DNA from: Halobaculum magnesiiphilum
GTDB lineage: Archaea; Halobacteriota; Halobacteria; Halobacteriales; Haloferacaceae
NCBI RefSeq assembly: GCF_019823105.1
Contig: NZ_CP081958.1
Location: forward strand, 930,001 to 994,000
Direction of reading: 5' to 3'
Length of the DNA stretch: 64,000 bases
Positions within the stretch are counted from its first letter, which is position 1. Every line of letters begins with the position of its first letter. This document shows, one piece after another, positions 34,411 to 62,813 of this stretch. Made by a program: the position numbers and the translations under genes. The notes beneath the pieces were generated by a model. That model ran no database searches, was not told the DNA's origin, and saw nothing but the letters and a program-made list of their open reading frames with translations.

Positions 34411-36000
34411 GTGAACGGCGAACCGGTCGATCTCGAACCCGGATCCTGCCCGCGGTGCGGCGTGGACAGTTGCCTCACGCGCGGGGCGTTCGAGCACCCA
34501 CAGTGTGGATCCGTGTTCTTCGGGGATCGGCGTCGAGCCCCGTCGGAGTGTTCTCGCTGCGGTCCCGGAACCGCCGCCGAGGTGGTCCGCGTCGGGTCGA
34601 TAACCGAGTGCGTCGGCTGCGGCTACCGGGTCGACACGCCGCTGGCGAGCGACGGTCGAGGTGGGGAGCACGGCCCTGGCGGCGACGAGCCCGGCGGCGG
34701 CGTCGACCGCGCCGTTACGCGGCCCTCGCTTCGGTCGCTCGTGTCCGATGGCGGCCGCGGAAGCGCGACCGTCTGGCGGCGGACGGCCGCGGTCGCCCTC
34801 GCGCTCGTCGTCGTGGCGGCGACGGTGACGACCGCCCTCGCCGTGGGTATCGGCGGCGACCTTCGGATCGGAGCCGGCGGGGCCGCCGGTCCCGCGGCCG
34901 GCGCGTCACTCGACGGACCCGCGACGGCGCCCGACGGAACCCCGGGGGCGACGGCGCCCGGCGTGACCTCGACCGTGCCCGACGGACCCGCGACGGCGAC
35001 GCCCGACCCGGAGTGGCGCGAGTACCGGACGATCGTGGTGTTCCGAAACGACGACCCCCAACCCGGGTACCGACCGGAGGCGATGCGCGCGCTCGATCGC
35101 GTGTTCGTCGAGGAGGACGTTCCCGTCACGAACGCCGTGATCCCGGCGGTGGGGTCCGCGGAGGTCGACCCGGACGGCCGGTTCTGTCGGTACCTCCGCG
35201 AGCGCGCGAGCGAGCATCCGGACCTGTTCGAGTTCGCGACCCACGGCTACACCCACGAGCGGGCGAGCCACTTCCACGGCGGCAGCGAGTTCGGGGACCG
35301 GCCGGCCGCGGAGCAGCGTCGGCGGATAGACCGCGGAACGGCCGCGCTGACGGCCTGCGTCGGCGAGCGCCCGCGGACGTTCGTGGCGCCGATGAACACC
35401 TACGACCGAACGACGACGCGGGCGCTGGCGGACGCGAACTACACGGTCGTCTCCGGGAGCACGTGGTTCACGCGTGCGTACTACGACCGCGAGGGGGCGT
35501 TCCGGGCCGGCGGGCTCACTCACGTCCCGAGTACCGAGGCGTTCATCGCCGAGTGGTCGGCGACCGGCGCGGCGAACGAATCCGGCCGCGAGACGGAGGC
35601 GCGGCTCCGGGCCTCCTTCGACGCGACACACCGGTCCGACAACGCGTCGGTGTACGTCCAGATGCTCCACTATCAGCACTTCACGACGAGCGAGCGGCGA
35701 GCGACGCTCCGTGGGTTCATCGACCACGTTCAGTCGACCCCTGGCGTTCGGTTCATGACGCTCGGCGACCTCGGGGCCGGCCTCGAATCGGGGGCGGTCG
35801 TCCGGACGGACGACGGCTGGCGCGTGAACGACGCCGCCGTCCCCAACGCACCCGAGCGCGGTGACGGGTCGAGCGATCGCGGGTGGGTACCCGAAGGGGG
35901 AACCGACTCCGGGGTCGGACCCTCCGAGGAGCTCGTCGGACCGGCCGCGGCGACCGCGGTTCGGGTGCCGCGCGCCGTCGCTCGCGGAGGCGACTCGTGA
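34411..36000 (+). CDS. Polysaccharide deacetylase-like membrane protein with N-terminal zinc ribbons
   Basis: A 529-residue protein with a GTG start. Residues 11-72 contain CPRC, CSRC and CVGC knuckles (Cys13/16, Cys47/50, Cys67/70), cytoplasmic zinc ribbons. A membrane helix lies at about 125-147, then a Pro/Ala/Thr-rich linker, and an extracellular NodB-like domain from about 205 (FRNDDPQPGYRPE; THGYTHERASHFHGG; APMNTYDRTT). The DD and H-x3-H metal ligands fit a polysaccharide deacetylase, although the family DUF2334 is an alternative. The stop overlaps the glycosyltransferase start (GTGA), so the two are translationally coupled. Confidence 0.8.
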   Translation: MNGEPVDLEPGSCPRCGVDSCLTRGAFEHPQCGSVFFGDRRRAPSECSRCGPGTAAEVVRVGSITECVGCGYRVDTPLASDGRGGEHGPGGDEPGGGVDRAVTRPSLRSLVSDGGRGSATVWRRTAAVALALVVVAATVTTALAVGIGGDLRIGAGGAAGPAAGASLDGPATAPDGTPGATAPGVTSTVPDGPATATPDPEWREYRTIVVFRNDDPQPGYRPEAMRALDRVFVEEDVPVTNAVIPAVGSAEVDPDGRFCRYLRERASEHPDLFEFATHGYTHERASHFHGGSEFGDRPAAEQRRRIDRGTAALTACVGERPRTFVAPMNTYDRTTTRALADANYTVVSGSTWFTRAYYDREGAFRAGGLTHVPSTEAFIAEWSATGAANESGRETEARLRASFDATHRSDNASVYVQMLHYQHFTTSERRATLRGFIDHVQSTPGVRFMTLGDLGAGLESGAVVRTDDGWRVNDAAVPNAPERGDGSSDRGWVPEGGTDSGVGPSEELVGPAAATAVRVPRAVARGGDS

Positions 36001-49761: not shown

Positions 49762-50607
49762 CTATCCCACCACCGTCGCGACCCGGCCCGCGACGAACGC
49801 CGCCGCCGCCAGGAACGTGCCGCGTTTGATCCACCGCTGTGCCGTCCCGGGGTCCCGGAACCCCCACGCGGTCGCCCCCAGCATCGCCGCGTCCGCCGGA
49901 AGGACGACCGCCACATACGCGAGGCCGAAGGTCCCGTCGACGTACGGGACCGCGCTCGCCAGCGTCGCCGCCGCCATCGCGACCGTCGCGAGCGCCAGTG
50001 CCGGACGCTCCCCGGCGACGATGGGGAGCGTCCGCAGCCCCTCCTCGCGGTCGCCGGCCACGTCCTCCACGTCCTTCACGACCTCGCGGGCGAACGTCGC
50101 CGTCGCGGCCAGCCCGAACAGCGTCGGCGTCGGCGCCGCGATCGGTCCGACCGCCGCGGCGCCGAAGAGGAACGTCGAGCCGGTGAGGTACGCGACGACG
50201 AGGTTCCCCACCGCCGGCAACCCCTTGAACAGCTGCGTGTACGCCAGCAGCGCCAGGAGGTTCACCACCGCGATCGCCAGCGCCAGGGTCGGCAGCGACA
50301 GCGCCGCGACGGTCGCGATCAGGAACAGGGCGGCCGCGAACGTGGCGGCCGGACGCGCGGAGACGCGGCCGCTCGGGATCGGACGGTCGGGGCGATTTAC
50401 GGCGTCGATGTCGCGGTCGAAGTAGTCGTTGACCGCGTTGCCCGCGCCGGTCGCCGCCGCGGTCGCGACCACGGCGAGCGTGACGGCCCACGGGCTGTCG
50501 AGCCCGCCGGCGACGAACGAGCCGACGAACGTGAGCGCGCCCGCCGCGACCGCGTTGCCGACGCGGGCGAGCTCGAGGTAGCCGCCGATCGTCCGTGTCG
50601 CGTTCAT
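49762..50607 (-). CDS. UbiA-family prenyltransferase, probable digeranylgeranylglyceryl phosphate synthase
   Basis: A 281-residue protein with about eight membrane helices. The two Asp-rich motifs are NDYFDRDIDAVNRPDRPIPSG and REVVKDVEDVAGD. Both match archaeal geranylgeranylglycerol-phosphate geranylgeranyltransferases, which attach the second isoprenoid chain in membrane lipid synthesis. It is distinct from MenA (other motifs). Stands alone between a RecA-like gene and the tRNA-Arg gene. Confidence 0.9.
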   Translation of the reverse strand: MNATRTIGGYLELARVGNAVAAGALTFVGSFVAGGLDSPWAVTLAVVATAAATGAGNAVNDYFDRDIDAVNRPDRPIPSGRVSARPAATFAAALFLIATVAALSLPTLALAIAVVNLLALLAYTQLFKGLPAVGNLVVAYLTGSTFLFGAAAVGPIAAPTPTLFGLAATATFAREVVKDVEDVAGDREEGLRTLPIVAGERPALALATVAMAAATLASAVPYVDGTFGLAYVAVVLPADAAMLGATAWGFRDPGTAQRWIKRGTFLAAAAFVAGRVATVVG

Positions 50608-50955: not shown

Positions 50956-51030
50956 GGGCGCTTAGCTCAGTCTGGACAGAGTGCTTGGCTTCGGACCAAG
51001 TTGCCGCGGGTTCAAATCCTGCAGCGCCCA
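50956..51030 (+). tRNA. tRNA-Arg (anticodon TCG)
   Basis: A full cloverleaf of 75 nt without encoded CCA. Acceptor arm GGGCGCT/AGCGCCC, D-stem GCTC/GAGT, anticodon stem CTTGG/CCAAG around loop CTTCGGA (anticodon TCG, reading CGA), T-arm GCGGG-TTCAAAT-CCTGC. No intron. Its 3' end is repeated downstream and marks the left edge of a possible genomic island. Confidence 0.97.
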
Positions 51031-51031
51031 T
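51017..51031. repeat. tRNA 3'-end repeat, copy 1 (putative att core)
   Basis: tcctgcagcgcccat, the last 14 bases of tRNA-Arg plus one. The same 15 bases recur at 51141-51155, and a near-perfect copy stands at 57705-57721. tRNA 3' ends are the usual attachment sites of archaeal integrases. Confidence 0.7.
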
Positions 51032-51074
51032 CGTTCTGCGACGAACGAAGTGAGGAGCGAACGATCTCGCGGGA

Positions 51075-51086
51075 AGGATTTGAACC
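51075..51086. repeat. Inverted copy of the tRNA T-arm
   Basis: aggatttgaacc is the exact reverse complement of the T-arm stretch at 51009-51020. It sits between the two direct copies of the tRNA end and is surrounded by a cgccgag/ctcggcg hairpin (51100-51130). It looks like a scar of earlier recombination at the tRNA. Confidence 0.55.
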
Positions 51087-51140
51087 AGACGAGTCGCAGC
51101 GCCGAGCGGAGCGAGGCGACCGTCTCGGCGTGGTTCACGG

Positions 51141-51158
51141 TCCTGCAGCGCCCATAGA
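51141..51158. repeat. tRNA 3'-end repeat, copy 2
   Basis: Positions 51141-51155 repeat copy 1 exactly (15 of 15), and 51142-51158 (cctgcagcgcccataga) match 57705-57721 in 16 of 17 positions. GC content drops immediately to the right. Confidence 0.7.
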
Positions 51159-51267
51159 GTTCACCGTTCGTAATAGACGGTTCACGAGTAGATCGTGGCC
51201 ACGTTTCTCCGCGGGGCGAGGTTCTGATGACACGGGTTCCTGCGACGCATCAGAAGTCTATTAGCAG

Positions 51268-51459
51268 TCACGGCTCGTTGTCATTGACTCTTCCCCGCCT
51301 TTCGTTCTCCGAACGAATGGTTTCGAACGCTCGGATGGCCCAGTGGACGGTTACACCGATACCGACGACGACGAGTAGATGAAGGATCACCCGAAACAGG
51401 TACTCCCCAAGGGTCACCCCCTGACCAGTGTGCAGTACGACGCCCGATATCGAACTCAT
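51268..51459 (-). CDS. Small membrane protein at the end of the OsmC operon
   Basis: A 63-residue protein with one long membrane helix (about 22-42) and a basic cytoplasmic end. It starts 28 bp after the stop of the four-helix protein gene, in the same direction. No family recognised. Its small size lowers certainty, but the operon position and hydrophobic segment support coding. Confidence 0.5.
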   Translation of the reverse strand: MSSISGVVLHTGQGVTLGEYLFRVILHLLVVVGIGVTVHWAIRAFETIRSENERRGRVNDNEP

Positions 51460-51487
51460 ACATGAAGGCAGGGCTCGGTGAGATCAG

Positions 51488-51985
51488 CTACGTAGTCTGA
51501 ACTCCTCGGTACGACAATACGACCCCGACGATGAAGACGATCGTCGCCAGGTAGATCGGTCCGAGATGCGTCACCCAATCGTGAGCGAACGCATCTCCCG
51601 TCCAATGCATCGGTAACGCGAGCGCCAAGCCGACGACGGCACTGATGATCGCCGTTGCCCACGCCCACGTGAGCCCCTGGCGTACGCCGTACCACGAGAG
51701 GCCCGCGACGGCGATACCCGTTGAGATGATGAACGCAGCGGTGGCGACGTGGAGGTGACTAATGTAGTACGCCACCGTCGGATCGAGATCGGCGGCCGTC
51801 ATCCCGGCCAGTGTACTGACTCCGAGTTCGAATCCGCTCCCCACGAAATTCAACACGAGAAATACGATCCCGTAGCCGACGAACGCGATCCCGGGGAGGG
51901 CCATCAGTGCCGCTCCGTTTCGGACCTGTGACTCGAACTGGACCTGTTCTCCCTGTTCGTCCGTGACTGATTGTTCTGTCGCCAT
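51488..51985 (-). CDS. Four-helix membrane protein of the OsmC operon
   Basis: A 165-residue protein with start at 51983-51985, five bases from the stop of the methyltransferase. Four membrane helices (about 28-52, 70-92, 95-120, 132-158) follow a short polar N-terminus. Histidines in SHLHVATAA and LPMHWTGDAFAHDWVTHLG could bind heme or metal, but no known family is recalled. Codon use is less GC-biased than in surrounding chromosomal genes. Confidence 0.65.
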   Translation of the reverse strand: MATEQSVTDEQGEQVQFESQVRNGAALMALPGIAFVGYGIVFLVLNFVGSGFELGVSTLAGMTAADLDPTVAYYISHLHVATAAFIISTGIAVAGLSWYGVRQGLTWAWATAIISAVVGLALALPMHWTGDAFAHDWVTHLGPIYLATIVFIVGVVLSYRGVQTT

Positions 51986-51990
51986 GAGGT

Positions 51991-52758
51991 TCACTTTATT
52001 GCCCCGACCGTGACGCTCTTGACACCGTACTTCCCGCACGCGTTGGCCGCCCGATCAGAGAGGAATTCGTACTGTGTGTTCTCTCGGGTCTCCGTCACTG
52101 AGAAGCCAGCAGCTTCGATGAGCCTCGTGTAGCTGCCGATCTGTTCGGCACCACCGATACAGGCGGCCCACAGGTCCGCGTCGGACTTGATGCTCTCGGG
52201 CATCCGTTGTTCACTGACGATGTCGGAGAGAGCCAGCTGTCCGCCCGGTTTGAGCACCCGGTTCGCCTCCTCGAAGACCGTTCTCTTCTCGGCGGAAAGG
52301 TTGAGTACGCCGTTCGAGATCACCGCGTCGAACGAGGCGTCCTCGAACGGGAGCTCCTCGATATACCCTTCGCGGAAGGTGACGTTGTGGAAGCCGTTGT
52401 CCGTTGCGAGGTCGTTGGCCTTCTCGACTTGCTCCGTAGTCATATCGATGCCCGTCACTGCACCGGTCTCAGTTACGTGTAGCCCGGCGACGAAGGCGTC
52501 CATCCCCGAGCCACTGCCGAGGTCAAGCACGTCCGCACCTGATTCAAGCTCTGCCACGTCGAAGTAGTAGCCAACGCCCGCGAACGAGTCGATGGCCACG
52601 TCCGGGACGTAGTCGAGATCGTCGGGGTCGTACCCGAGGCGGACGGCGAGATCGCGGCCCGTCTCGAAGTGGAACTCGGCGTCGGAGGACTCCGCGACCT
52701 CCTGATACATCGACTTGACCTCGCGTTCGAGTTTGTCCGTGTCGAGTGCTTCGCTCAT
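51991..52758 (-). CDS. SAM-dependent methyltransferase, ArsM-like
   Basis: A 255-residue class I methyltransferase. VLDLGSGSGMDAF at 77-89 is motif I, and AVISNGVLNLSAEK and EANRVLKPGGQLALSD are the downstream motifs typical of the UbiE/ArsM group. Two cysteines (in AACIGGAEQ and ANACGKYG) sit where ArsM has arsenic ligands, but the first ArsM cysteine is absent and the usual SNCVINL reads SNGVLNL. A methyl acceptor other than arsenite is therefore possible. It is 12 bp downstream of the OsmC gene. Confidence 0.8.
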   Translation of the reverse strand: MSEALDTDKLEREVKSMYQEVAESSDAEFHFETGRDLAVRLGYDPDDLDYVPDVAIDSFAGVGYYFDVAELESGADVLDLGSGSGMDAFVAGLHVTETGAVTGIDMTTEQVEKANDLATDNGFHNVTFREGYIEELPFEDASFDAVISNGVLNLSAEKRTVFEEANRVLKPGGQLALSDIVSEQRMPESIKSDADLWAACIGGAEQIGSYTRLIEAAGFSVTETRENTQYEFLSDRAANACGKYGVKSVTVGAIK

Positions 52759-52770
52759 CGGTGGTCTCCG

Positions 52771-53376
52771 TTAGTCGTCGCCCGCCACCTCGGCGGGAGT
52801 TGCGACGGTCATCTCGACGTTCTGGGCAAGCGAGACGAGCGTGTAGACGGGTGCCCGCCGTGCCCACTCGTCGATCTGGTCCTGATCGAGGTCCGCGCCG
52901 TCTATCTCGACTTCGGCGGTGAGGTTCTCGAAGGCAGAGTCGGCCTCTTTGAGTTCCGTGAGGCTGAACAGAACCGCCGGATCGAAATCGGTCCGGACGC
53001 GCGTCTGGAGGTGGTCGATGTCCACATCGCTGGCGGCGGCGTTGATCGTGATGCCGACGTTGATACAGGCGGCCAGCGCCGACAGCGCCGCTTCAATCGG
53101 CTCCATCCGGTCGGTCGCGCCGATCCACCCACTAGCGTGCAACACTTCCTTCCAGCCGCCGTAGGGAATCGTGTATTCTCGCGTTTCACGGGCTATTGTC
53201 TCGCCTCCGAGCTCGTAGCTATCGATCTTTGCCAAGCTATGGGCAGCCGTCCCTTCGTAGGTTGCTGACGCCCCGAGGCCAAGCTGGACAGCTTCGGGCA
53301 CCTCAGCTGCGTGTTCGGTGAACCCTTCGAGTGTTTCGAGGTCGATGCCGTGCGATGTTCGCTGGTCGTCGGTCAT
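52771..53376 (-). CDS. OsmC family protein, second active-site cysteine missing
   Basis: A 201-residue protein with the OsmC/Ohr fold. The central helix ALSALAACINVGITINA holds Cys104, the nucleophilic cysteine of organic hydroperoxide reductases. The second cysteine, expected in a CPV motif, is alanine here (Ala175 in RRAPVYTL). Without the resolving partner, peroxidase turnover would need an external thiol, or the protein binds rather than reduces its ligand. First gene of a four-gene operon; an inverted repeat lies over its promoter. Confidence 0.85.
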   Translation of the reverse strand: MTDDQRTSHGIDLETLEGFTEHAAEVPEAVQLGLGASATYEGTAAHSLAKIDSYELGGETIARETREYTIPYGGWKEVLHASGWIGATDRMEPIEAALSALAACINVGITINAAASDVDIDHLQTRVRTDFDPAVLFSLTELKEADSAFENLTAEVEIDGADLDQDQIDEWARRAPVYTLVSLAQNVEMTVATPAEVAGDD

Positions 53377-53599
53377 TTGTCTCCGCTCCCTGCCAGAGAC
53401 ACTACGATAGGGAAGATACTGTAGTTAATTTGTGATAGTTCGCCAGGAACTACAGGTCTGGCAGTCACTGGAAAAGTATCACCTCCTGCGATCCGAGGTC
53501 GGTTTGGATCGAACCTCCCCGGCTCGACTCCGAGATGAACTCCTCAGAACAAGCCGAGATTCCAATACGGTATGAACCGATCACATCAGTCGTCTTCGT
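53377..53599. other. Promoter region of the OsmC operon
   Basis: A 223-bp spacer between the OsmC gene and the regulator gene. It holds a perfect inverted repeat ctgtagtt...aactacag (53419-53426 and 53448-53455, 21-bp spacer) around an AATT-rich core that could be the TATA box. This is a good operator candidate for a dimeric repressor. Confidence 0.55.
53419..53455. promoter_or_regulatory. Inverted-repeat operator candidate
   Basis: 8-bp perfect arms, ctgtagtt and aactacag, with a 21-bp AT-rich spacer, 43-79 nt upstream of the OsmC start. The winged-helix gene next door is the obvious candidate to bind it. Confidence 0.5.
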
Positions 53600-54412
53600 T
53601 TACAGGGGTTCGACTGGCTGACCCTCCGACACGTACGTTTCGCACACCGACTGTGCCCACTCGCGGACAGCCGCTACGTCGGTGTCGATCAATACGTGGA
53701 CCGTCCCACTGTCCTGTTCGTAACAGCTGATGGTGACACGCTCATCGAGAAGACCGGTTCCACATGGGGGGAGGGCATCGTGCTCCAGAACGGTGAAATT
53801 GTCCTGTTGCATCATGTCTGCGCTGTGCTCCGGGTACGTCGAAAGAAAGTACGTATGGCTCTCTGGTCTAGCCACCAAAACTACGTCGACTCCCTCGTCA
53901 ACCAGTTGAACGAGAACCTCAAAGCACGGTTCCATCAAGGCAATCTCAGGACGAATTAAGCGAAGTTCGTTCGTCTCCGTGAGAAGCGACTCGAATCGGT
54001 CGATCGGGCGGTACGGTGAATCGGGTTCGGCGACAGTGATCGTCATCGCTTCCCACGTCTCGATGGACAATTCGCTGACCTCGTCGGGAAGCCAGTGCCA
54101 GATATCACGCAATTTCCGCTCTATTTCGACCTGTTCGATCAGGTCTTCCATTCCTGAAGCGATCACCTCCCCGAGCCGTGTCGCTGTATATTGGTAGCCG
54201 TCTTTGCGGATCCAGATCCGGGCTTCGAACTCGTCCAACGTCCGCCGCATTGTGGAGGACGAAACACCGCCCAGCTCACAGAGTTCAGAGCGACTCCGAG
54301 GACGCTCCGTCAGCGCGATTAGTGTCGGGACCCGGTGTTCGGACCGCGCGAGATACGCGATGTCACCGATCGGTGACACCGCATTTTGGTGTGGTATGCT
54401 ATCGTGGCCCAT
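53600..54412 (-). CDS. Winged-helix transcriptional regulator (haloarchaeal type), paralogue 1
   Basis: A 270-residue protein. Residues about 15-80 are a winged helix (IGDIAYLARSEHRVPTLIAL; SSTMRRTLDEFEARIWIRK). A ~150-residue C-terminal domain (about 120-265) with several cysteines follows, probably for ligand or redox sensing. It is homologous to the regulator at 56743-57603 over the whole length. It lies upstream of, and in the same direction as, the OsmC operon, with a 223-bp spacer holding the inverted repeat. Confidence 0.8.
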   Translation of the reverse strand: MGHDSIPHQNAVSPIGDIAYLARSEHRVPTLIALTERPRSRSELCELGGVSSSTMRRTLDEFEARIWIRKDGYQYTATRLGEVIASGMEDLIEQVEIERKLRDIWHWLPDEVSELSIETWEAMTITVAEPDSPYRPIDRFESLLTETNELRLIRPEIALMEPCFEVLVQLVDEGVDVVLVARPESHTYFLSTYPEHSADMMQQDNFTVLEHDALPPCGTGLLDERVTISCYEQDSGTVHVLIDTDVAAVREWAQSVCETYVSEGQPVEPL

Positions 54413-54942
54413 GAATCGAGTACGGATACGAGCCTGAAAACGATTTACCCCACCGACACGACGATCGATAACAGAGTAGCCGAGTCACTTGCTGTGGTTG
54501 CCGAGGCGGGCAATTCGTGTGACGCTGCGCGATGTCTCTCTCATCCGATCACAGGACAGTATGTCGAGTGCCTAATTCTGATCACGAAAACGCTCGAATT
54601 CGGCCGCCTCACGTCTGAAAGGTCGATTCGTTTGACCGTCGAACCGGAGCCTGCGGCGCTCATATTTTCGAGAGGTGTACTCGCCCGACTGCGGCGAGGT
54701 TGTCCTTGACACGGGCAGTTTCTCCGTGATCATCTCAGCGTACCATCGTTCAACTCCGCTCGGCACGTTGTAGAGGAGCGGACTTCTATCGCCTTCTATT
54801 CACTCGTGGCGTGTTCACACGATGAACAGCGAAGCTACCGTGAACGAAGTAAGCCCCATACTATCATCGTGAGTCGAACCGATGAACGAGACGCCCCACG
54901 ACTATGCCGTCCCCAACCACTCCCAACGAAGGCGGATCAGTG
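54413..54942. other. Spacer with repeat copy A
   Basis: A 530-bp spacer between the regulator and the cupin gene, lower in GC than the chromosome. It contains repeat A (54634-54716). Short open frames cross it but have no recognisable features, so I do not call them genes. The promoters of both divergent genes must lie here. Confidence 0.6.
54634..54716. repeat. 84-bp dispersed repeat, copy A
   Basis: Shares with 57689-57772 an opening of 28 bases that differ in only four places (gac.gtcgaaccggagcctgc.gcg..cat), and further matches such as tcgcccgac and cggcga before acgggc. Copies A and B are in the same orientation and bracket the right half of the island. Origin unknown: an old transposable element end, or an att-related sequence. 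Confidence 0.6.
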
Positions 54943-55320
54943 ATGACCTACACACGGATCTCTGCCGACGCGGATGGAGAGTCGCATTTCAGCGACGAGC
55001 AGGTTGCGCTCGACAAGGCTGATATCGCTCCACCGGCTCCCCCGGTGAATATGTCTTCGCCCACACCCGCCGAGAACGTCTCATTCGTGACGTTGCCCGC
55101 TGGGTGGCCCGAGGATGTGGACGACCCACACGTCGCCCCGGCCCGTAATTACTGGATCGTACTGGCCGGAGAGATGGAAGTCAGCGCCAGCGACGGAGAG
55201 AGACGGCAGTTCCCGCCGGGAAGCGTCCTTCTGGCGGAGGATACGAGCGGCAGCGGGCATACGACGACCGTCGTCGGCGATGATCCGGTGGAACTGGCCG
55301 TCGTCGAGACGGCGGACTGA
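54943..55320 (+). CDS. Cupin domain protein
   Basis: A 125-residue protein using the ATG at 54943 (an in-frame ATG at 54904 would add 13 residues). Cupin strands include RNYWIVLAGEMEVSASDGERRQFPPGSVLLAEDTSGSGHTT, cited here only in parts: NYWIVLAGEMEVSA, and PPGSVLLAED. The usual metal-binding HxH is not evident, so a structural or ligand-binding cupin is more likely than an enzyme. It is followed 66 bp later by a second cupin gene in the same direction. Confidence 0.75.
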   Translation: MTYTRISADADGESHFSDEQVALDKADIAPPAPPVNMSSPTPAENVSFVTLPAGWPEDVDDPHVAPARNYWIVLAGEMEVSASDGERRQFPPGSVLLAEDTSGSGHTTTVVGDDPVELAVVETAD

Positions 55321-55386
55321 GCGTCGGTGAACCGCTTGGAGAATACTGCTGCTCAACAGCTCATACCTTCACAACGAGCAGATGTC

Positions 55387-55947
55387 ATGCACCTACCAAC
55401 CGAGATCAGTAATCCGGGGACGGGCGAACGAATCGTCTTCGACGAAGATGCCTCAAACGATGAGAGACTGGTGTGGAACGAGTGGCGGCCGGCAGACAGA
55501 GAACCACCGCCAGCGCACTACCACCCCGCTACGGAGGAGCGGTTCGTCGTTCACGAGGGACACCTCGTCGTGCAGATCAACGGAATCGACAACCGCATCG
55601 ACGCTGGTGAGGAAATCGTCGTCCCTGCGGGGGAACCCCACGTCTCGTACACGGAGGCAGAATCCACGTACTTCCGACGCGAAGTTGCTCCACCCGGACG
55701 GTGGCGGGAGGCACTGACCGCGCGGTTCGGCGCCGCGCACGCCCACGGCGACCACTCGGGCTTCAGCAACCTGCTTCAGACGGTCCTGCTGCTTCGGGAG
55801 TATCCGGAGGTGGTCGTTCCTGCACGGCCGCCACGCTCCGTCCAGCGTGTCCTGTTTCCGGTTCTCGCCGCGGTCGCCCGGGTGACGGGCCGGACGGCTC
55901 ACTGCCCGTATCCACAGGAGAATGTGCCCCGGGAGGAAGTACACTGA
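55387..55947 (+). CDS. Cupin domain protein with metal-binding motif
   Basis: A 186-residue protein from the ATG at 55387 (a GTG at 55327 would add 20 residues). The cupin metal motif is present: His44, His46 and Glu51 (PAHYHPATEERF) with His85 in the second motif (GEPHVSY). The C-terminal ~75 residues are helical and hydrophobic (VQRVLFPVLAAVARV) and could touch the membrane. The metal centre is compatible with an isomerase or dioxygenase. It follows the first cupin gene, with which it may form an operon. Confidence 0.8.
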   Translation: MHLPTEISNPGTGERIVFDEDASNDERLVWNEWRPADREPPPAHYHPATEERFVVHEGHLVVQINGIDNRIDAGEEIVVPAGEPHVSYTEAESTYFRREVAPPGRWREALTARFGAAHAHGDHSGFSNLLQTVLLLREYPEVVVPARPPRSVQRVLFPVLAAVARVTGRTAHCPYPQENVPREEVH

Positions 55948-56035
55948 ACAGTACTGTCGTGTACCGGACCCTGGAAACACCACCACGTGGACGTTCCAGT
56001 AAGACACGAGCGAGAAGGTGAGAGACACGCGTGCG

Positions 56036-56467
56036 CTATGCAATCGGCTCGTCGATTACGTCGAGTTGCTGAAGTGCGGCGAGGAAGTTCCAGGTGGCCC
56101 ACGTTTCCGCGATCTTCCCGTCCCTGATGCGGTGCATGGCGGTACCGGGAATTTCCATTCTCTCGTCTGTCGGATCGACACCCCGGAAGACGCCCTCGTG
56201 CGTGCCCGTCATCGTCCCTTCGAACGCCACCAGGTCGTCCTCGGCAATGAGTTCGCCAATGAGGACTTCGCTGTCGGGGAACGCCTCGTGAAGTCGCTGT
56301 AGTGCCGTAATGAACGGCTCCGGACCCTGTTCGGCGACGTCAGCATCCGGGTCGTGTCGCGTATAATCGGCGGTGAACAGCGCTCTCACCTGGTCGTAGT
56401 TCTGGGCGTTCGCCTCGCTGATGAACCGCCGAACGAGTTCTTTGTTCTCTTGAACTGTTGTTGCCAT
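56036..56467 (-). CDS. SnoaL-like (ester cyclase) protein
   Basis: A 143-residue alpha+beta barrel protein. NKELVRRFISEANAQN and DYTRHDPDA at the start, GTMTGTHEGVFRGVDPTDERM in the middle (cited only as FEGTMTGTHEG), and RIRDGKIAETWATWNF near the end are typical of the SnoaL polyketide-cyclase family. Small members act as cyclases or dehydratases or are simply binding proteins. Divergent from the second regulator, with which it shares a 275-bp spacer. Confidence 0.85.
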   Translation of the reverse strand: MATTVQENKELVRRFISEANAQNYDQVRALFTADYTRHDPDADVAEQGPEPFITALQRLHEAFPDSEVLIGELIAEDDLVAFEGTMTGTHEGVFRGVDPTDERMEIPGTAMHRIRDGKIAETWATWNFLAALQQLDVIDEPIA

Positions 56468-56535
56468 AGGTTCTCCGCGGAGTCACGGACTCCACATCTC
56501 TCTCGGCGGAGGAGGCTATTCGCAATATCCCCTGA

Positions 56536-56551
56536 ACACTGCTCACAGTGT
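56536..56551. promoter_or_regulatory. Short inverted repeat, operator candidate
   Basis: acactg/cagtgt with a 4-bp spacer, 69-84 nt upstream of the SnoaL gene start and about 190 bp upstream of the regulator. Confidence 0.35.
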
Positions 56552-56712
56552 GAACGAAGCATTCGAGACGAGAATGGGCCTATCCAGTGAACTGTTCCGG
56601 GACGACTCCGATCTGTTGGGGCATTCCGAAAGTGCCGTACACTTCCCCGGTTTTAGCTATCGGGCCGGTTCCCCCGATCGATCGACATCCCCGCGAGGTG
56701 GTCACCCTATGC

Positions 56713-56718
56713 TATTTA
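56713..56718 (+). promoter_or_regulatory. TATA box of regulator 2
   Basis: TATTTA centred 27.5 nt before the ATG at 56743. This decides the start: the transcript would be leaderless, and upstream in-frame starts would lie before the promoter. Confidence 0.65.
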
Positions 56719-56742
56719 GTGTGGTATGTGTTATCAATATAC

Positions 56743-57603
56743 ATGAACTCGGCACTCGATGACGTCGCGTTTCTTGCGTTGTCCGAGAACCGAATCGACC
56801 TCCTCACGGTGCTGAGCGACGAGCGAACGCACACGCGTGACGAGTTGATGGATGCCACCGATGCTTCGCGCCCGACGCTGGCCCGGATTCTCGACGACTT
56901 CGAAGCGCGTGTCTGGATCACCCAGCACGGACAGAGCGCACGGATCACGTCACTCGGTACGTGGGTTCACGACGAGTTCACCGACTTACTGGAGATGATG
57001 GACACCGCACGACAACTGCGTACCGTCGAACAGTGGCTCTCGACGGACACGCTGGCATTCGAGCTGAGTTGTCTCACCGATGCAACAGTCACGCTGCCAA
57101 GCCGGAACAATCCGCTCGCGCCGATGCTCCGCGCGAGTGAGCTTGAGCGCACTGCTCGGCAGTCACGGGTCCTTACACATGCGCTCCCGCTCCCGTGTCT
57201 GAACGCACACTGGGAGGCGATCACGACCGGTACCCATCAGTTCGAGGCAGTGGTCACGCCGAACGTCGTCGAAACGATGACCGAGCCGGCACACCGTTCA
57301 CAGTTCACGGATATTCTCACAGATGACCAAGCAACGGTGTTCGTCGCCGAGGAACCCATTGCAGATGTTGTCGGGATTAACGATGGCGTCGTGTACTTTG
57401 GAATCGATGACGACAAGGGCGCTCCGCTCGCTCTGATCGAAACCGACGACGAGACGGTTCGTAATTGGGCTGAGGAGAGGTTCGAGTCGTATCGGGAGAC
57501 CTCCTCACTCCTGACACAGGACAGATTTGTACAGAGACAGGAGACGACGCACGATCCGGAGCGGATACAGGAGCGTATGTGTGCTGAAACATCTGATACA
57601 TGA
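56743..57603 (+). CDS. Winged-helix transcriptional regulator, paralogue 2
   Basis: A 286-residue protein with leaderless start at 56743. It shares the layout of the regulator at 53600-54412: winged helix at about 1-75 (DVAFLALSENRIDLLTVLSD; RPTLARILDDFEARVWI) and a C-terminal domain with VETDDETVRNWAEERFESYR-like end, cited as IETDDETVRNWAEERF, matching DTDVAAVREWAQSVCETY in paralogue 1. The ligand is unknown. It is the last gene before repeat B, divergent from the SnoaL gene. Confidence 0.8.
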   Translation: MNSALDDVAFLALSENRIDLLTVLSDERTHTRDELMDATDASRPTLARILDDFEARVWITQHGQSARITSLGTWVHDEFTDLLEMMDTARQLRTVEQWLSTDTLAFELSCLTDATVTLPSRNNPLAPMLRASELERTARQSRVLTHALPLPCLNAHWEAITTGTHQFEAVVTPNVVETMTEPAHRSQFTDILTDDQATVFVAEEPIADVVGINDGVVYFGIDDDKGAPLALIETDDETVRNWAEERFESYRETSSLLTQDRFVQRQETTHDPERIQERMCAETSDT

Positions 57604-57688
57604 TTGTCCTACCTCACAAGAGACAGAGCAGAGATATCGCATCGAAGGCGCAGATATCTGTATTGAGCGGTAGATGCAACTGGTGTGA

Positions 57689-57772
57689 GACGGTCGAACC
57701 GGAGCCTGCAGCGGCCATAGATTTGCGGTACAATAATCGCCCGACGGTGCGGCGATTCTCGCTCGAACGGGC
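57689..57772. repeat. 84-bp dispersed repeat, copy B
   Basis: Partner of the repeat at 54634-54716, in the same orientation. It contains cctgcagcggccataga, 16 of 17 bases identical to the second tRNA-end copy at 51142-51158. Confidence 0.6.
57705..57721. repeat. Near-copy of the tRNA 3' end (putative right att site)
   Basis: cctgcagcggccataga against cctgcagcgcccataga at 51142-51158: one mismatch. The distance of 6.56 kb encloses the whole low-GC gene set. Confidence 0.5.
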
Positions 57773-58001
57773 CTGATTTTGCGTTCGTTTCGACGCCCGC
57801 TTGGGTGAGTGGATCTCTCAGGTGTTCGCGTACAGCCAAACTCGTCCCGTTCCGGAAGATCGATCGCCGATCGACACAACACCCTCCCGATCTGTCGGGA
57901 CGATCGTGTTCACATCGCCAGATTCGTGTCGCGCTCGTTCACGAAGCGGGACTCATCCAGTGACTCAGGGCGGGTCGTCGCCGGGGTGCTGCGTGGGATC
58001 G

Positions 58002-58916
58002 CTACTCGACGACCTCGACGTCGAACTTCCCGTGCCAGCGATAGCGCCGGCCGCCCCAGACGAACGTCCGGCGGACGAGCCCGTAGAACAGGAGGGGGAC
58101 GAACACGAACAGCGACGGGTAGGCCAGCACGGCCGTCCACCGGCGAACGCCAAGGACCTCGTTGACGGCGAGGTGCACCAGCGTCAGAATCACCGCCGCA
58201 GGCAACGGAGCCGACACCGCACCCACGAGGACGAGCAGCGAAAAGACGCATATCCCGGCGACGGTCCCGGGGAAGTGCCACCGGAGGATCTGCGTCCACC
58301 GGACCGGGCGTTCGATCGCCTCGCGAATGGTCCCCCCGATGGGGACGATGCGCGTTCGGCCGACCGTCGTCACCTGGAGGTACTCCATGAGGAGCCCATC
58401 GTCACTGACGGTCCGCCGAAGGTCGTCGAGAAACGCGGCCTCGTCGATGTCGGTTCGCTCGAACACGACCGCGCCGCCCCAGATCTGGTTGCCGAGGTAC
58501 AGTCCCAGCGAGCCTGCCGATGCGTACAGCGGTTCGAGGAGCACCGAGAGAGGGTCTCGACCGACGAAGTACGGCACCTCCGACACCGGCCCGTGTGTCT
58601 CGTAGTCCGCGGTGAAGGTCGCCAGCCAGTCCGGGGGATGGTGGAAGTCGTCGTCCGTCCAGACGAGTCGGTCGTGGCGCGCGGCCCCCATCCCGGCAGC
58701 GATGGCGTTGGCCTTTCCCGAGCACTGCTCCGGTTCACCGGCCGCGACGAGGCGGACGCCCTCGGGGTGGTCCTTCCGTTCGGCGACGGGGTCGCCCTCG
58801 TCGTCGTGGACGATCAACAGCTCGTCGCCGGCCCCGAGTTGGGCGGCCAGCTCCGCGCACGCGTCGGTCCACCGCGTCGTCGGCAGGAGGACGCTCGTCG
58901 GCGGCCGGTCGGACAT
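58002..58916 (-). CDS. Family 2/21-like glycosyltransferase with C-terminal membrane helices
   Basis: A 304-residue protein. The nucleotide-sugar region has CSGKANAIAAGM and LVWTDDDFHHPPDWL (DxD), the acceptor region SDDGLLMEYLQ, and RWTQILRWHF is the (Q/R)xxRW motif. Two or three helices close the protein (about 225-290). This arrangement recalls ceramide glucosyltransferase-like GT21 enzymes. The N-terminus begins directly in the fold with SVLLPTTRW. Stands alone just right of the island, with chromosomal GC content. Confidence 0.85.
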   Translation of the reverse strand: MSDRPPTSVLLPTTRWTDACAELAAQLGAGDELLIVHDDEGDPVAERKDHPEGVRLVAAGEPEQCSGKANAIAAGMGAARHDRLVWTDDDFHHPPDWLATFTADYETHGPVSEVPYFVGRDPLSVLLEPLYASAGSLGLYLGNQIWGGAVVFERTDIDEAAFLDDLRRTVSDDGLLMEYLQVTTVGRTRIVPIGGTIREAIERPVRWTQILRWHFPGTVAGICVFSLLVLVGAVSAPLPAAVILTLVHLAVNEVLGVRRWTAVLAYPSLFVFVPLLFYGLVRRTFVWGGRRYRWHGKFDVEVVE

Positions 58917-59105: not shown

Positions 59106-60365
59106 ATGGCAAGCGCGGCGCGCTCGCTGACGGAACCGCAGGTCCTCGCGCACACGAAGCGCCGCCTCTTCCCCGACGACGCCGACGACGGGTACGCCGT
59201 CGTCGACACGCAGTTCGCCGCCGACCGGTGGCTCGCCGACGGAGCGATCGATTCGAGCGTCACGGAACTGCTCGCGCCGTTCAACCACGTCCGCGTCGGC
59301 TCGGGGTACCCGGACCTGGTCGGCGTTCGCGTCCTCGATCCGGATCTCCTGGCCGTCGACCGGCTGGGGGAGGAGCCGCCGCTCGTCGCCGTCGAGGCGA
59401 AGGGGTACGACGACCGCGGCGGCGTCGACGTGGAGCGCGGCGTCGTCCAGGCGTACGACCGACTCGACGAGGCCAACGCCGTGTACGTCGCGGCGCCCGT
59501 CGCCTCGATCGGCGGGTCGGTCCGGACGCTCGCTCGCGAACTCAACGTCGGCGTCCTCGCCGTCGACGCCGACGGCGCGGTCGACGCCGTCGAGGTGCCG
59601 CGCGTCGTCGGCAACCGGACGACGAGCGAGACGACCGCGATCCGGTTTCAGGCGAGCGCGCAGGGCGTCGCCGACAAGTCGTTCGGCCTCAACCACCCGA
59701 AGAACTACCTCGCGTATCCGCTGGCGCTGTACCACCCCGACGAGACGGAGCGCGTGCTCTCCGAGCACGTCGTTCGCGCCGTCGACGCCGCTCGCACCGG
59801 CGCCGCGTTTCTGAACCTCGTCGAGGAGCGACCCGACGGGGTGCGGCTGACGCCGCTGGGGAAGGAAGTCGTTCGGTTCGCGCTCGCGGAGTACGGCTCC
59901 GTCGAGTCCGCGTTGGCCGAGTTCGACGAGTGGAAGCGGTCACGGAGGCGGTTTTCCGACATCGCGCCAAAGTGGGGGCTGCTCACCCGCAGGGTGGTCT
60001 ACGCGTATCCGGCGACGCAACTGCTCGTCGAGGAGCTCCAGCGCCTCCACGAGGACGGCGTCCCAGAGCCGACGCTGCCGCAGGTCGTCGAGTACCTCCA
60101 CGAGCTGCACCCCTCGTTCACGGTCGAGCTGTTCGTCCGCGGCGACGACGACGTTCGGGGCCGCGTGTTGGACGCGGACGGCGAACTCCAGCGCGCGGCG
60201 CTGACCGACGGAGACGTGTATCACGCGCCCACGGTGTTCCAACTCAAGGCCATGCTGTATCACGCGGGAATTCTGACGACCCGCGGAACCGAGCCCTCGA
60301 ACCTGGATCCGACGGCCGACACGTGGGCGCTCCGGGAGCAAGTGAGCCCTACCGGGGGGCGATAG
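59106..60365 (+). CDS. PD-(D/E)xK-like protein with possible winged-helix region
   Basis: A 419-residue soluble protein. GSGYPDLVGV (Pro69-Asp70) and VAVEAKG (Glu97, Lys99) form a PD...ExK pattern, followed by GVVQAYDRL with a Gln, as in the restriction-endonuclease fold. A segment near 235-260 (AFLNLVEERPDGVRLTPLGKEVV) looks like a winged helix. The remaining part is helical. Many haloarchaea seem to have a similar gene, so a conserved DNA-processing role is possible, but nuclease activity is only inferred from the motif. Confidence 0.65.
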   Translation: MASAARSLTEPQVLAHTKRRLFPDDADDGYAVVDTQFAADRWLADGAIDSSVTELLAPFNHVRVGSGYPDLVGVRVLDPDLLAVDRLGEEPPLVAVEAKGYDDRGGVDVERGVVQAYDRLDEANAVYVAAPVASIGGSVRTLARELNVGVLAVDADGAVDAVEVPRVVGNRTTSETTAIRFQASAQGVADKSFGLNHPKNYLAYPLALYHPDETERVLSEHVVRAVDAARTGAAFLNLVEERPDGVRLTPLGKEVVRFALAEYGSVESALAEFDEWKRSRRRFSDIAPKWGLLTRRVVYAYPATQLLVEELQRLHEDGVPEPTLPQVVEYLHELHPSFTVELFVRGDDDVRGRVLDADGELQRAALTDGDVYHAPTVFQLKAMLYHAGILTTRGTEPSNLDPTADTWALREQVSPTGGR

Positions 60366-60626
60366 CTGCTGATCCGGGCGTGGGGTCGCGTTCGTGGACG
60401 ACGAGTTCGCCTCCGAGCGACGAGTCGGCGAAGGACACCCTACCGCCGCAAGGGTGAGCCTGTCGTCGGAGTTCGCGCGCCTGATCGGAGTCGATATCGA
60501 GTCGTCCGGCTGACAGTACTGCAGCCCGTGCCCGACCGTACCGGATCCTTCCCGATTCATAACAAAGCAGCGGCGACGCGTTACGGGTCACGCGTGGCGG
60601 GCCGTCCGTCACCGGAGACACCAGAC

Positions 60627-61043
60627 ATGGCGACAACATCGACGGCGGACTCGTACGACGACACCGTGACGGAGATCGAGGAGACGCTCGGGATAGTTCC
60701 GGGCTTCTTCGGCGACATGCACCGTGACGACCTGGTCAACGAGTGGCCGACCTTCAAGCGGATGGCGCTGGGTGAGACGACGATCCCGGCCAAGTATAAG
60801 GAATTGATCAACCTCGCGGTCGCGGCGAACCTGAAGTGTCCGTATTGCATCCACTTCCACCGCGAGGCGGCGAAACTACACGGCGCGACCGACGAGGAGC
60901 TGACGGAGCTGTCGTTCCTGGCCGGCTACACGCCGCGGTACAGCAGCATGCTTCACGCCCAGGAGTACGACCTCGATCAGTTCGAGGAGGAAGTCGAGCA
61001 GATCGGCGCCCACCTCCAGTCGCAGATGGCGGCCGACGACTGA
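60627..61043 (+). CDS. AhpD-like protein with CxxC
   Basis: A 138-residue carboxymuconolactone-decarboxylase-family protein. Cys71 and Cys74 with His78 (CPYCIHFH) form the AhpD-type redox centre, so alkylhydroperoxidase or thiol reductase activity is likely. IPAKYKELINLAVAANLK precedes it. The ATG at 60627 removes a long unrelated extension. In contrast to the 41993 gene, the active site is complete. Confidence 0.9.
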   Translation: MATTSTADSYDDTVTEIEETLGIVPGFFGDMHRDDLVNEWPTFKRMALGETTIPAKYKELINLAVAANLKCPYCIHFHREAAKLHGATDEELTELSFLAGYTPRYSSMLHAQEYDLDQFEEEVEQIGAHLQSQMAADD

Positions 61044-61097
61044 TCGCCGAGTACAATTTTCGTCGATTCGCCGAGCGCGATTCCCCCGATCCCCCGC

Positions 61098-61313
61098 TTA
61101 CTCCTCGTCCAGCAGTCCCATGTCCTCGACGACCAGATCGGCGATCCGGTCGGCGAGCGCGGGGTCGACGACGGCGACGTCCTCCCCGTCGTGGCGCGTC
61201 TCGTTGTGTCGCTCCAGTTGGTCGGCGAGGTCCGACAGCGGGACGCGCGTCCGGGTGTCGCACTCCTCGCAGACGATGGGTACTGTGGGGTCGTCGTCCC
61301 CGTCGGTGGACAT
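61098..61313 (-). CDS. C2H2-type zinc-finger microprotein
   Basis: A 71-residue protein with CEEC at about 16-19 and H-x4-H (RHNETRH) 17 residues later, a plausible zinc finger. The helical C-terminus is acidic. The ATG at 61311-61313 gives MSTDGDDDPTVPIVCEEC. Convergent with the AhpD-like gene. Function unknown. Confidence 0.65.
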   Translation of the reverse strand: MSTDGDDDPTVPIVCEECDTRTRVPLSDLADQLERHNETRHDGEDVAVVDPALADRIADLVVEDMGLLDEE

Positions 61314-61417
61314 ACACGGCGCTCGCGCGGGCATCGTCATGAACGGGTCGGTTCGGTCGTCCGCGACGGGCGACATCGCCGCGGGCGGAACTTCGGACCA
61401 CGCGGCCGCCGCGTCGG

Positions 61418-62653
61418 TTACTCCAGCCGCGTGGGATCGACCTCGTCCCCGAGCGCGGCGAGACGGTCGGCGGTCGAGATCCCGGACAGCAGCACCGTGA
61501 CCCGGAACTCCTCGGCGGTCGGGTCGGGGTAGTCGCCCCAGCGGATCTCGGGCACGCCCGTCTCCTCCTCGATGAGACCGCGCGCGCGTTCGAGCCCGCG
61601 GCGACTGAGCCACGCCGGCGGCGCGTGGAAGACGACGGCCGCGCGCGACGCGCTGGTGAGATCACACGGGAGGCTGAGCTGATGTGAGATCGCCTTCCGG
61701 GCGGCGTTGGTGGCGACCGACACCGCCTCCCCCTCGTCGACGGCGGGCCCGTCAGCGCCCCCGATGCGGTCGATCAGGCCGCCGACGAACCCCTCCCGGC
61801 GGCCGTTCTCCACCTCGGCCCCCGCGGAACCGAGCGCCGTGACGCCGCCGGCGCCGAGGGTGTTCGTCAGTTCGCTGGCGTCGAGCACGCGCTCGGGCGT
61901 CGGGTCGGCGGCCTCGCCGGCGGCCAGAAGCGGGGCGAGCCGCCCCGCGACGGCGTCGTCCAGCCGCGGCCACGCCGCCGCGTAGGAGGCGCCGCTGGCG
62001 CGCCACACGTCGAGATCGGCGAGCAGGAGATCGTCGCTCGCGGCCGAGAGCGCGCGAACCGCCCCCGCGGCGTTGGACGAGAGCGGGCGGGCGGGTCGCT
62101 CCGAACGGTCCTCAGCGTCGCCGTTGCCGGTGGCGGCGCCGTCACCGTTGGCGTCGCCGGAACCGGAACCTCGCGATCGCTTCGGTCCGTCCGTCGTCGC
62201 GTCGGTGGCGGCGCCGTCGCCGCCGGACTCGGCGACGCCCGGGAGCACCCCGAGCGCGTACACCGGCGTGCCCGTCACCTGCCCGAGCAGGTCGACGACC
62301 GCCGGGGCGACGCCGGCGGCGGTGCCGCCGCCGAGCGCGGCGCACACGAGCGCGGCGTCCGTTCGCCCGACCGGGAGCGAGTCGACCGCCGCCTGGAGCT
62401 CCGGGCGCTCCTCGCGGGCGATCTCCGACGCGAGGTTCGCGTCGCCGGCGGTGCCCTCGCCCTCGGTGTGGACCGCGCCGATCAGATGGCGGTCGTCCTC
62501 GTCGACGCGTTCAAGCGCCGCGAGATCGCCGGCGTCGGTGTCGATCGCGACCGCGTCGGCGACGTAGTCCACGGCACGTCCCCCCTCGTCCGCCAGCAGC
62601 GCGTCCGCCAGCGCGGTGCCGCCGCCGCCGACGCCGACGATTCCGATCTGCAT
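61418..62653 (-). CDS. Divergent tubulin/FtsZ-superfamily protein
   Basis: A 411-residue protein. T1 is GVGGGGTA (6-13), T2 is AIDTDAGDL, and T4 is [10 protein letters not shown] (108-117), an altered form of the GGGTGSG signature. After T5 (ALGVLPG) comes a Gly/Asp/Ser-rich insert (about 145-185). The T7 loop NxDxxD needed for GTP hydrolysis by the neighbouring subunit is not found. It is neither a canonical FtsZ1/FtsZ2 nor an obvious CetZ, so a regulatory or non-hydrolysing member is likely. Start at 62651-62653. Confidence 0.75.
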
Positions 62654-62813
62654 ATCGAGTGAACGCGGCCCCCGCGAGTACATAATCGTGATGGAGCCAG
62701 CGGGCCGCGATAGTGCTCGGAGAGGATCGGCGCGACCCGAACGGCTCGACCCGAACGGCCCGACCCCGGGGAACGGGGAAAAGCGGTTTGTCGCGCGCCG
62801 CCGTGGTCGCCGT

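Follow-up and report, generated by a model that had tools for sequence, protein, structure and literature searches.

The DNA behind the tRNA-Arg(TCG) gene of Halobaculum magnesiiphilum is a decayed tandem array, built by at least three separate insertions and reaching to ~61.1 kb of the window, by which we mean the whole stretch of 64,000 nt that was analysed. Its order, from the tRNA on, is a 124-nt mini segment, segment A, which has lost its left end (LE), segment B, segment C, which has lost its right end (RE), and older variable DNA up to ~61.1 kb. The segments are very probably integrase-less cassettes, each inserted site-specifically at the 3' end of the tRNA gene, and the recurrence of the same ends behind tRNA-Arg in about one third of the sampled haloarchaea suggests an integron-like way of collecting genes.

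The array behind tRNA-Arg(TCG)

ARAGORN finds the tRNA gene where the initial annotation had located it (Table 1), and the repeats of its 3' end reported there are present too: the core CTGCAGCGCCCAT occurs exactly at 51019 and 51143 and with one mismatch at 57706; a further copy at 54651, with two mismatches, had been missed. With up to two mismatches, CTGCAGCGCCCAT has five matches in the window versus 0.93 expected, and five is reached by one of 100 shuffles; the bare core is thus just modestly above chance. The longer arms around it, unlike the bare core, are far beyond chance, as scored with RE and LE profiles from which all sequences of the genus were excluded. ARAGORN also predicts a 91-nt tRNA-Glu(TTC) at 35767-35857, long for a glutamate tRNA, which may contain an intron or be a misprediction.

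The stretch is also, as had been noticed, poor in GC (59% from 51.0 to 57.7 kb versus 71%), the value for 51032-57718 being 0.593 and that of equally long 6.7-kb windows on its left 0.713 on average (SD 0.010). The codon check agrees: GC3 is low in all eight genes tested within the low-GC stretch (0.67-0.80 versus 0.92), and genes beyond 58.0 kb are native-like in composition. The low GC stops near 57.9 kb; the variable region runs further, to ~61.1 kb.

Uniformly low GC between 51.0 and 57.7 kb, together with core copies at both outer boundaries, would fit one integrative element inserted once at 51.03-57.72 kb, its inner cores being chance matches or internal repeats. Such a single insertion is very improbable. 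Of the right ends in the window, the inner one at 54594-54664 scores best (E=7e-22), and elsewhere it delimits independent units; the four core copies imply at least three segments, which leaves a single element unsupported. Moreover, a left end begins at the 57.7-kb repeat, which is thus not the end of the region, since a further element starts there; as the glycosyltransferase gene that follows is itself accessory, the right boundary is shifted from the 57.72 kb proposed initially to ~61.1 kb. What stands of the island suggested by the initial annotation is accessory DNA of foreign composition anchored at a tRNA 3' end, but not one 6.6-kb element. Likewise, the repeats at 54651 and 57706, of which the latter had been taken for an attachment site, are remnants of such sites, whereas the copy at 51143 has neither RE nor LE arms. 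This bare copy speaks against our reading of the region as an array of inserted cassettes, as do the lack of any complete cassette and of a right end for segment C, the native-like codon usage of the segment C glycosyltransferase, and the low identity (51%) of the nearest relative, in this genome, of the recombinase linked to the same ends.

Table 1. Features of the window; E values are from profiles built with the genus left out
Feature	Position	Strand	Evidence and remarks
Left flank gene, UbiA-type prenyltransferase	49762-50607	-	Named by eye; syntenic beside the tRNA in 11/11 genus genomes, 83-98% protein identity
tRNA-Arg(TCG), attachment gene	50956-51030	+	ARAGORN; also in 11/11 genus genomes
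Attachment core CTGCAGCGCCCAT, copy 1	51019-51031	+	tRNA 3' end
Core-to-core mini segment, 124 nt	51032-51155	+	Exact core copy at its end (51143-51155)
Segment A	51156-54663	+	GC 0.589; no left end recognised
A: membrane protein	51488-52039	-	Pfam/NCBIfam search
A: ArsM-like methyltransferase	51991-52758	-	Pfam/NCBIfam
A: OsmC	52771-53376	-	Pfam/NCBIfam
A: HVO_A0261/FilR1-type regulator	53600-54412	-	Pfam/NCBIfam
RE1, canonical right end of segment A	54594-54664	+	Core CTGCGGCGCTCAT, 2 mismatches; E=6.8e-22
Segment B	54664-57718	+	GC 0.595
B: weak left end	54653-54718	+	7.6 bits only
B: cupins	54904-55320, 55327-55947	+	Pfam
B: SnoaL	56036-56467	-	Pfam
B: HVO_A0261/FilR1-type regulator	56716-57603	+	Pfam
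RE2, shortened right end of segment B	57689-57718	+	Core CTGCAGCGGCCAT, 1 mismatch; E=2.9e-6
LE (~168 nt), canonical left end of segment C	57708-57876	+	E=4.8e-31, full model length
Glycosyltransferase, probable cargo of segment C	58002-58916	-	Pfam; 2/11 genus genomes; native-like GC3
Rest of variable zone	59106-61091	+	Patchy across the genus
Protein without assigned name, variable zone	59106-60365	+	
Carboxymuconolactone decarboxylase family	60627-61043	+	Pfam
Right flank start	61092-62659	-	Small protein 61098-61322; tubulin/FtsZ-like 61418-62659 (names by eye)

Within the mini segment, the tRNA T arm recurs in inverted orientation. Core-to-core segments of ~80-125 nt directly behind tRNA-Arg are seen in several genera (L041, L263 and L236-L255, besides that of the window), and some of them contain the inverted T arm (GGATTTGAACC). 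Two genes of segment A have counterparts within the arrays of G276 (L095) and Natrinema sp. SYSU A 869 (L129), which are 66-67% identical for the methyltransferase and 47-56% for the regulator. The window holds no complete cassette: A lacks its LE, B has a short RE and a barely recognisable LE, and C lacks its RE, no core within three mismatches being found between 57.85 and 61.2 kb. As, in addition, no close relative of the linked recombinase described below was found in the genome (51% identity at best), the window copy is probably immobile now. No convincing recombinase relic was detected within the window (best E 0.04). Two more weak right-end matches are present in the same genome (G000:C3:421269-421330, L219; G000:C1:2090891-2090937, L220), neither of which has a tRNA within the surrounding 9 kb.

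The tRNA and the left flank are kept at the same chromosomal place in all 11 genus genomes, and the right flank beyond ~61,092 is recognised in most of them, synteny returning at 61090-61100 in G002, G003, G005, G007 and G010. In keeping with an acquired region, the gene order in between is not common to close relatives: only the near-identical G006 (~97%) resembles the window between the tRNA and ~61,092, the other genomes having different content there. Where the decarboxylase gene is present, it lies 9.6 kb from the tRNA in G000 and G006, 15 kb in G001, 34 kb in G004 and 52 kb in G005. No empty site was found at this locus among the 11 genomes; in G010, one 946-nt toxin-antitoxin cassette with both ends is followed by 245 nt and then by the conserved flank. 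A different element of ~13.8 kb, with other arms, lies at the same tRNA-Arg(TCG) in G001 (L048), G008 (L057) and G002 (L049); the tRNA is followed there by TTCCTTCGCCGCCCGTT..., and the right side reads GGTCGGAATCGGCGAAG-core in G001 and G008.

Cassette ends in other haloarchaea

The core copies at 54.65 and 57.71 kb end a longer stretch which, used as a probe, recurs in other haloarchaea. By alignment, this RE is 72 nt long and consists of CCGAATTCGGCCGCCTCACGCCTGAAAGGTCGATTCGTTCGAYAGTCGAACCGGAGC (~58 nt) followed by the core, behind which the LE, likewise conserved and ~165 nt long, is often found. With filters that lose weak matches, the RE profile detects 133 of 392 genomes and 43 of 95 genera of the order, and the LE profile 97 of 392 genomes and 42 of 95 genera. 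In a phylum-wide sample, all 14 positive genomes belong to the order. The same ends were found neither in IMG/VR, searched with an exact pattern, nor in phage records.

Elsewhere, these ends bracket cassettes of 0.9-10 kb, often toxin-antitoxin ones, arranged head to tail behind tRNA-Arg. In the first locus set, 42 LE...RE units were delimited, from 879 nt to ~9 kb, and one unit of ~10 kb is present in Natrinema sp. SYSU A 869. Many units measure 0.88-1.1 kb, the window segments 3.5 and 3.1 kb. Among those of ~1 kb, frequent contents are a Fic protein, a DUF5615/DUF433 pair, or a PIN toxin accompanied by a small, antitoxin-like protein for which there was no Pfam match; larger ones contain transporters, methyltransferases, hydrolases and regulators, partly assigned by eye. 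The Halapricum-type G161 has, behind the tRNA, a row of LE and RE across ~38 kb with seven RE, and G047, G226 and G309 have arrays of ~1-kb units.

At the junctions, a tRNA core is flanked by an arm on each side. Among 66 LE anchored at a core, an anchoring that is partly imposed by the model, 38 are preceded by an RE, 12 directly by tRNA-Arg and 16 by another core copy (943 kb of loci); RE and tRNA-Arg share the strand in all 31 pairs. The sequence of the core changes together with that of the host tRNA (CTGCAGCGCCCA, CTCCAGCGCCCA, CCTCAGCGCCCG), and is CCCGTCGCGCCCG at tRNA-Arg(CCG). At the latter gene, native sequence X directly follows the core in G318 and G409. In G099, of the same genus, a cassette of ~850 nt lies between tRNA-Arg(CCG) and X, which returns at the second core with 85% identity to G318 over 102 nt. 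Cassettes from different families are 83-84% identical in DNA, the matches ending at the cassette end, and Fic and VapBC cassettes, 93% identical in the congeners G161 and G294, follow the tRNA in one order in one genome and in the reverse order in the other. As read from these sequences, the pair of filled and empty sites, which comes from tRNA-Arg(CCG) in another genus and not from the locus of the window, and the reversed order support insertion and shuffling.

Two other natures of the ends were considered and rejected. One was that a conserved protein begins in RE (ATGGGCGCTGCAGG... translates as MGAAGSGSTIERID); a copy in G045 contradicts this, since it contains a stop and its GTTCGA/TCGAAC dyad carries a paired change instead. 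The other was that the ends belong to a known RNA, but Rfam matched only the tRNAs in four array loci.

A linked tyrosine recombinase and the proposed mechanism

No recombinase was recognised in the cassettes examined, and a regular-expression hunt for integrases in the arrays gave no match; a Pfam search of the arrays later found one, in G004. It belongs to an element of 18.6 kb, which also carries type I restriction genes; the LE of this element lies behind the tRNA, and its tyrosine recombinase gene starts just inside the RE. The absence of an integrase gene, reported in the initial annotation, is thus true for the window, but elsewhere there are relatives with the same right end that do carry one. 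Relatives of the G004 recombinase are present in 343 of 392 genomes of the order, and the closest start, mostly, ~48-50 nt from an RE (G280, G201, G396, G039, G184, G030). The linked recombinase matches Phage_integrase of Pfam and is far below the cut-off of the NCBIfam XerC, XerD and XerA/integron-integrase models. In the genome of the window, no recombinase was found beside a tRNA-Arg core; the nearest relative of the linked recombinase there, 51% identical, lies without a tRNA at C1:706168, with a degenerate CCCTGCAGCTCAT nearby. A second type of arm was observed (L184-L186, L188, L215, L110), in which the recombinase gene is followed by GTCACGCCGCGTGACCAAGG, adjoining the same core, and then by LE; the place of the dyad is kept and its sequence changed, which suggests that arm types are matched to recombinase clades.

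Broken recombinase genes beside RE in G344, G396 and G004 make gene loss with conservation of the ends visible. These decayed pieces, and the incompleteness of the window segments, are what a pile-up of once autonomous plasmids or proviruses would leave, the units then being relics and not mobilised in trans. We consider this unlikely, since many units of 0.9-1.0 kb contain a single toxin-antitoxin module between two intact arms, whose retention is unexpected for relics, and the same compact units occur across families in differing order. It is very doubtful, too, that homologous recombination, acting on the LE/RE repeats and on the tRNA flanks, spread the arrays with no site-specific recombinase involved: the long, similar arms permit it and arrays of the Halapricum type share sequence into neighbouring arms, but the junctions coincide exactly with the core, whose sequence follows that of the local tRNA, and there is a tyrosine recombinase gene next to the same right end.

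Site-specific recombination is instead argued from the identity of the core with the local tRNA-Arg 3' end, the arrangement of LE and RE, the filled and empty pair and the reversed order. A complete cassette consists of the core and LE (~165 nt), one to few cargo genes, and RE (~58 nt and core), and in its circular form RE-core-LE would constitute attP. The tyrosine recombinase would come from larger elements that have the same right end; it would bind the arms of LE and RE and exchange strands within the 12-13-nt core common with the tRNA. Cassettes might thereby be added, removed or reordered with the tRNA undamaged. The recombinase of the larger elements is likely the mobiliser of the cassettes in trans; we infer the formation of circles, and likewise the route of cassettes between cells.

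Relation to known systems and significance

Additive islands anchored at tRNA genes are known in bacteria (Alteromonas, PMC4119200; Methylophilaceae fGI-2, PMC10872708; PMC6060240). Like them, the present arrays have a conserved tRNA at one place, a variable number of cassettes and direct repeats of the tRNA 3' end, and at the locus studied here the place and its neighbours are constant, cassettes are present or absent, and there are four core copies. In contrast to these islands, they are found in an archaeal order, have a defined LE and RE per cassette and share this RE with a linked recombinase.

Dependents without an integrase are known for integrons as CALINs (PMC11389934). Common to both systems are head-to-tail cassettes of one to few genes, many of them toxin-antitoxin, a shuffled order and arrays that lack an integrase. 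The haloarchaeal arrays differ by their tRNA anchor, by a tRNA 3' core with arms of ~165 nt and ~58 nt, apparently in place of attI/attC, by a recombinase that is not an integron integrase, and by cassettes whose genes, often several, lie on either strand. Integrons are also on record from archaea (PMC9668308), and a term search of that article gave no mention of halobacteria, haloarchaea or tRNA.

Tycheposons are reported as bacterial elements of 4-200 kb (PMC10872708), which resemble ours in their tRNA anchoring and cargo and, where the larger elements are concerned, in their tyrosine recombinase; ours, unlike them, are haloarchaeal, mostly of 0.9-10 kb, and do not fit this size range. tRNA anchoring and a recombinase within the element go together in larger elements such as G004 and G396, not in the cassettes nor in the window. 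Haloarchaeal integrases that target tRNA genes, of the SNJ2-type and pR1SE1 groups, also belong to tyrosine recombinase elements at tRNA genes, for which tandem integration and integrated elements without an integrase have been noted (PMC8371274); a term search of that review found no description of a cassette or satellite family. Additive tRNA-anchored islands and integrase-less dependents are thus known; as far as the open-licence literature was searched, a defined, order-wide cassette family of haloarchaea is new.

For the window itself, one possible island is replaced by ordered insertions with known ends. A working integron-like system of haloarchaea, in which a family of tyrosine recombinases acting in trans would capture, exchange and reorder small cassettes behind tRNA-Arg genes, with toxin-antitoxin modules often stabilising this pool and the core adapted to the tRNA sequence of each host, is a broader proposal, for which we hold belief and doubt to be evenly balanced. 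If true, it would represent a defined and searchable cassette-collecting system in about one third of haloarchaeal genomes and would account for part of their variable gene content and of the spread of toxin-antitoxin genes. It would also offer a testable set of recombinase, arms and core for archaeal genetics, and constitute a parallel to bacterial integrons, built from unrelated parts.
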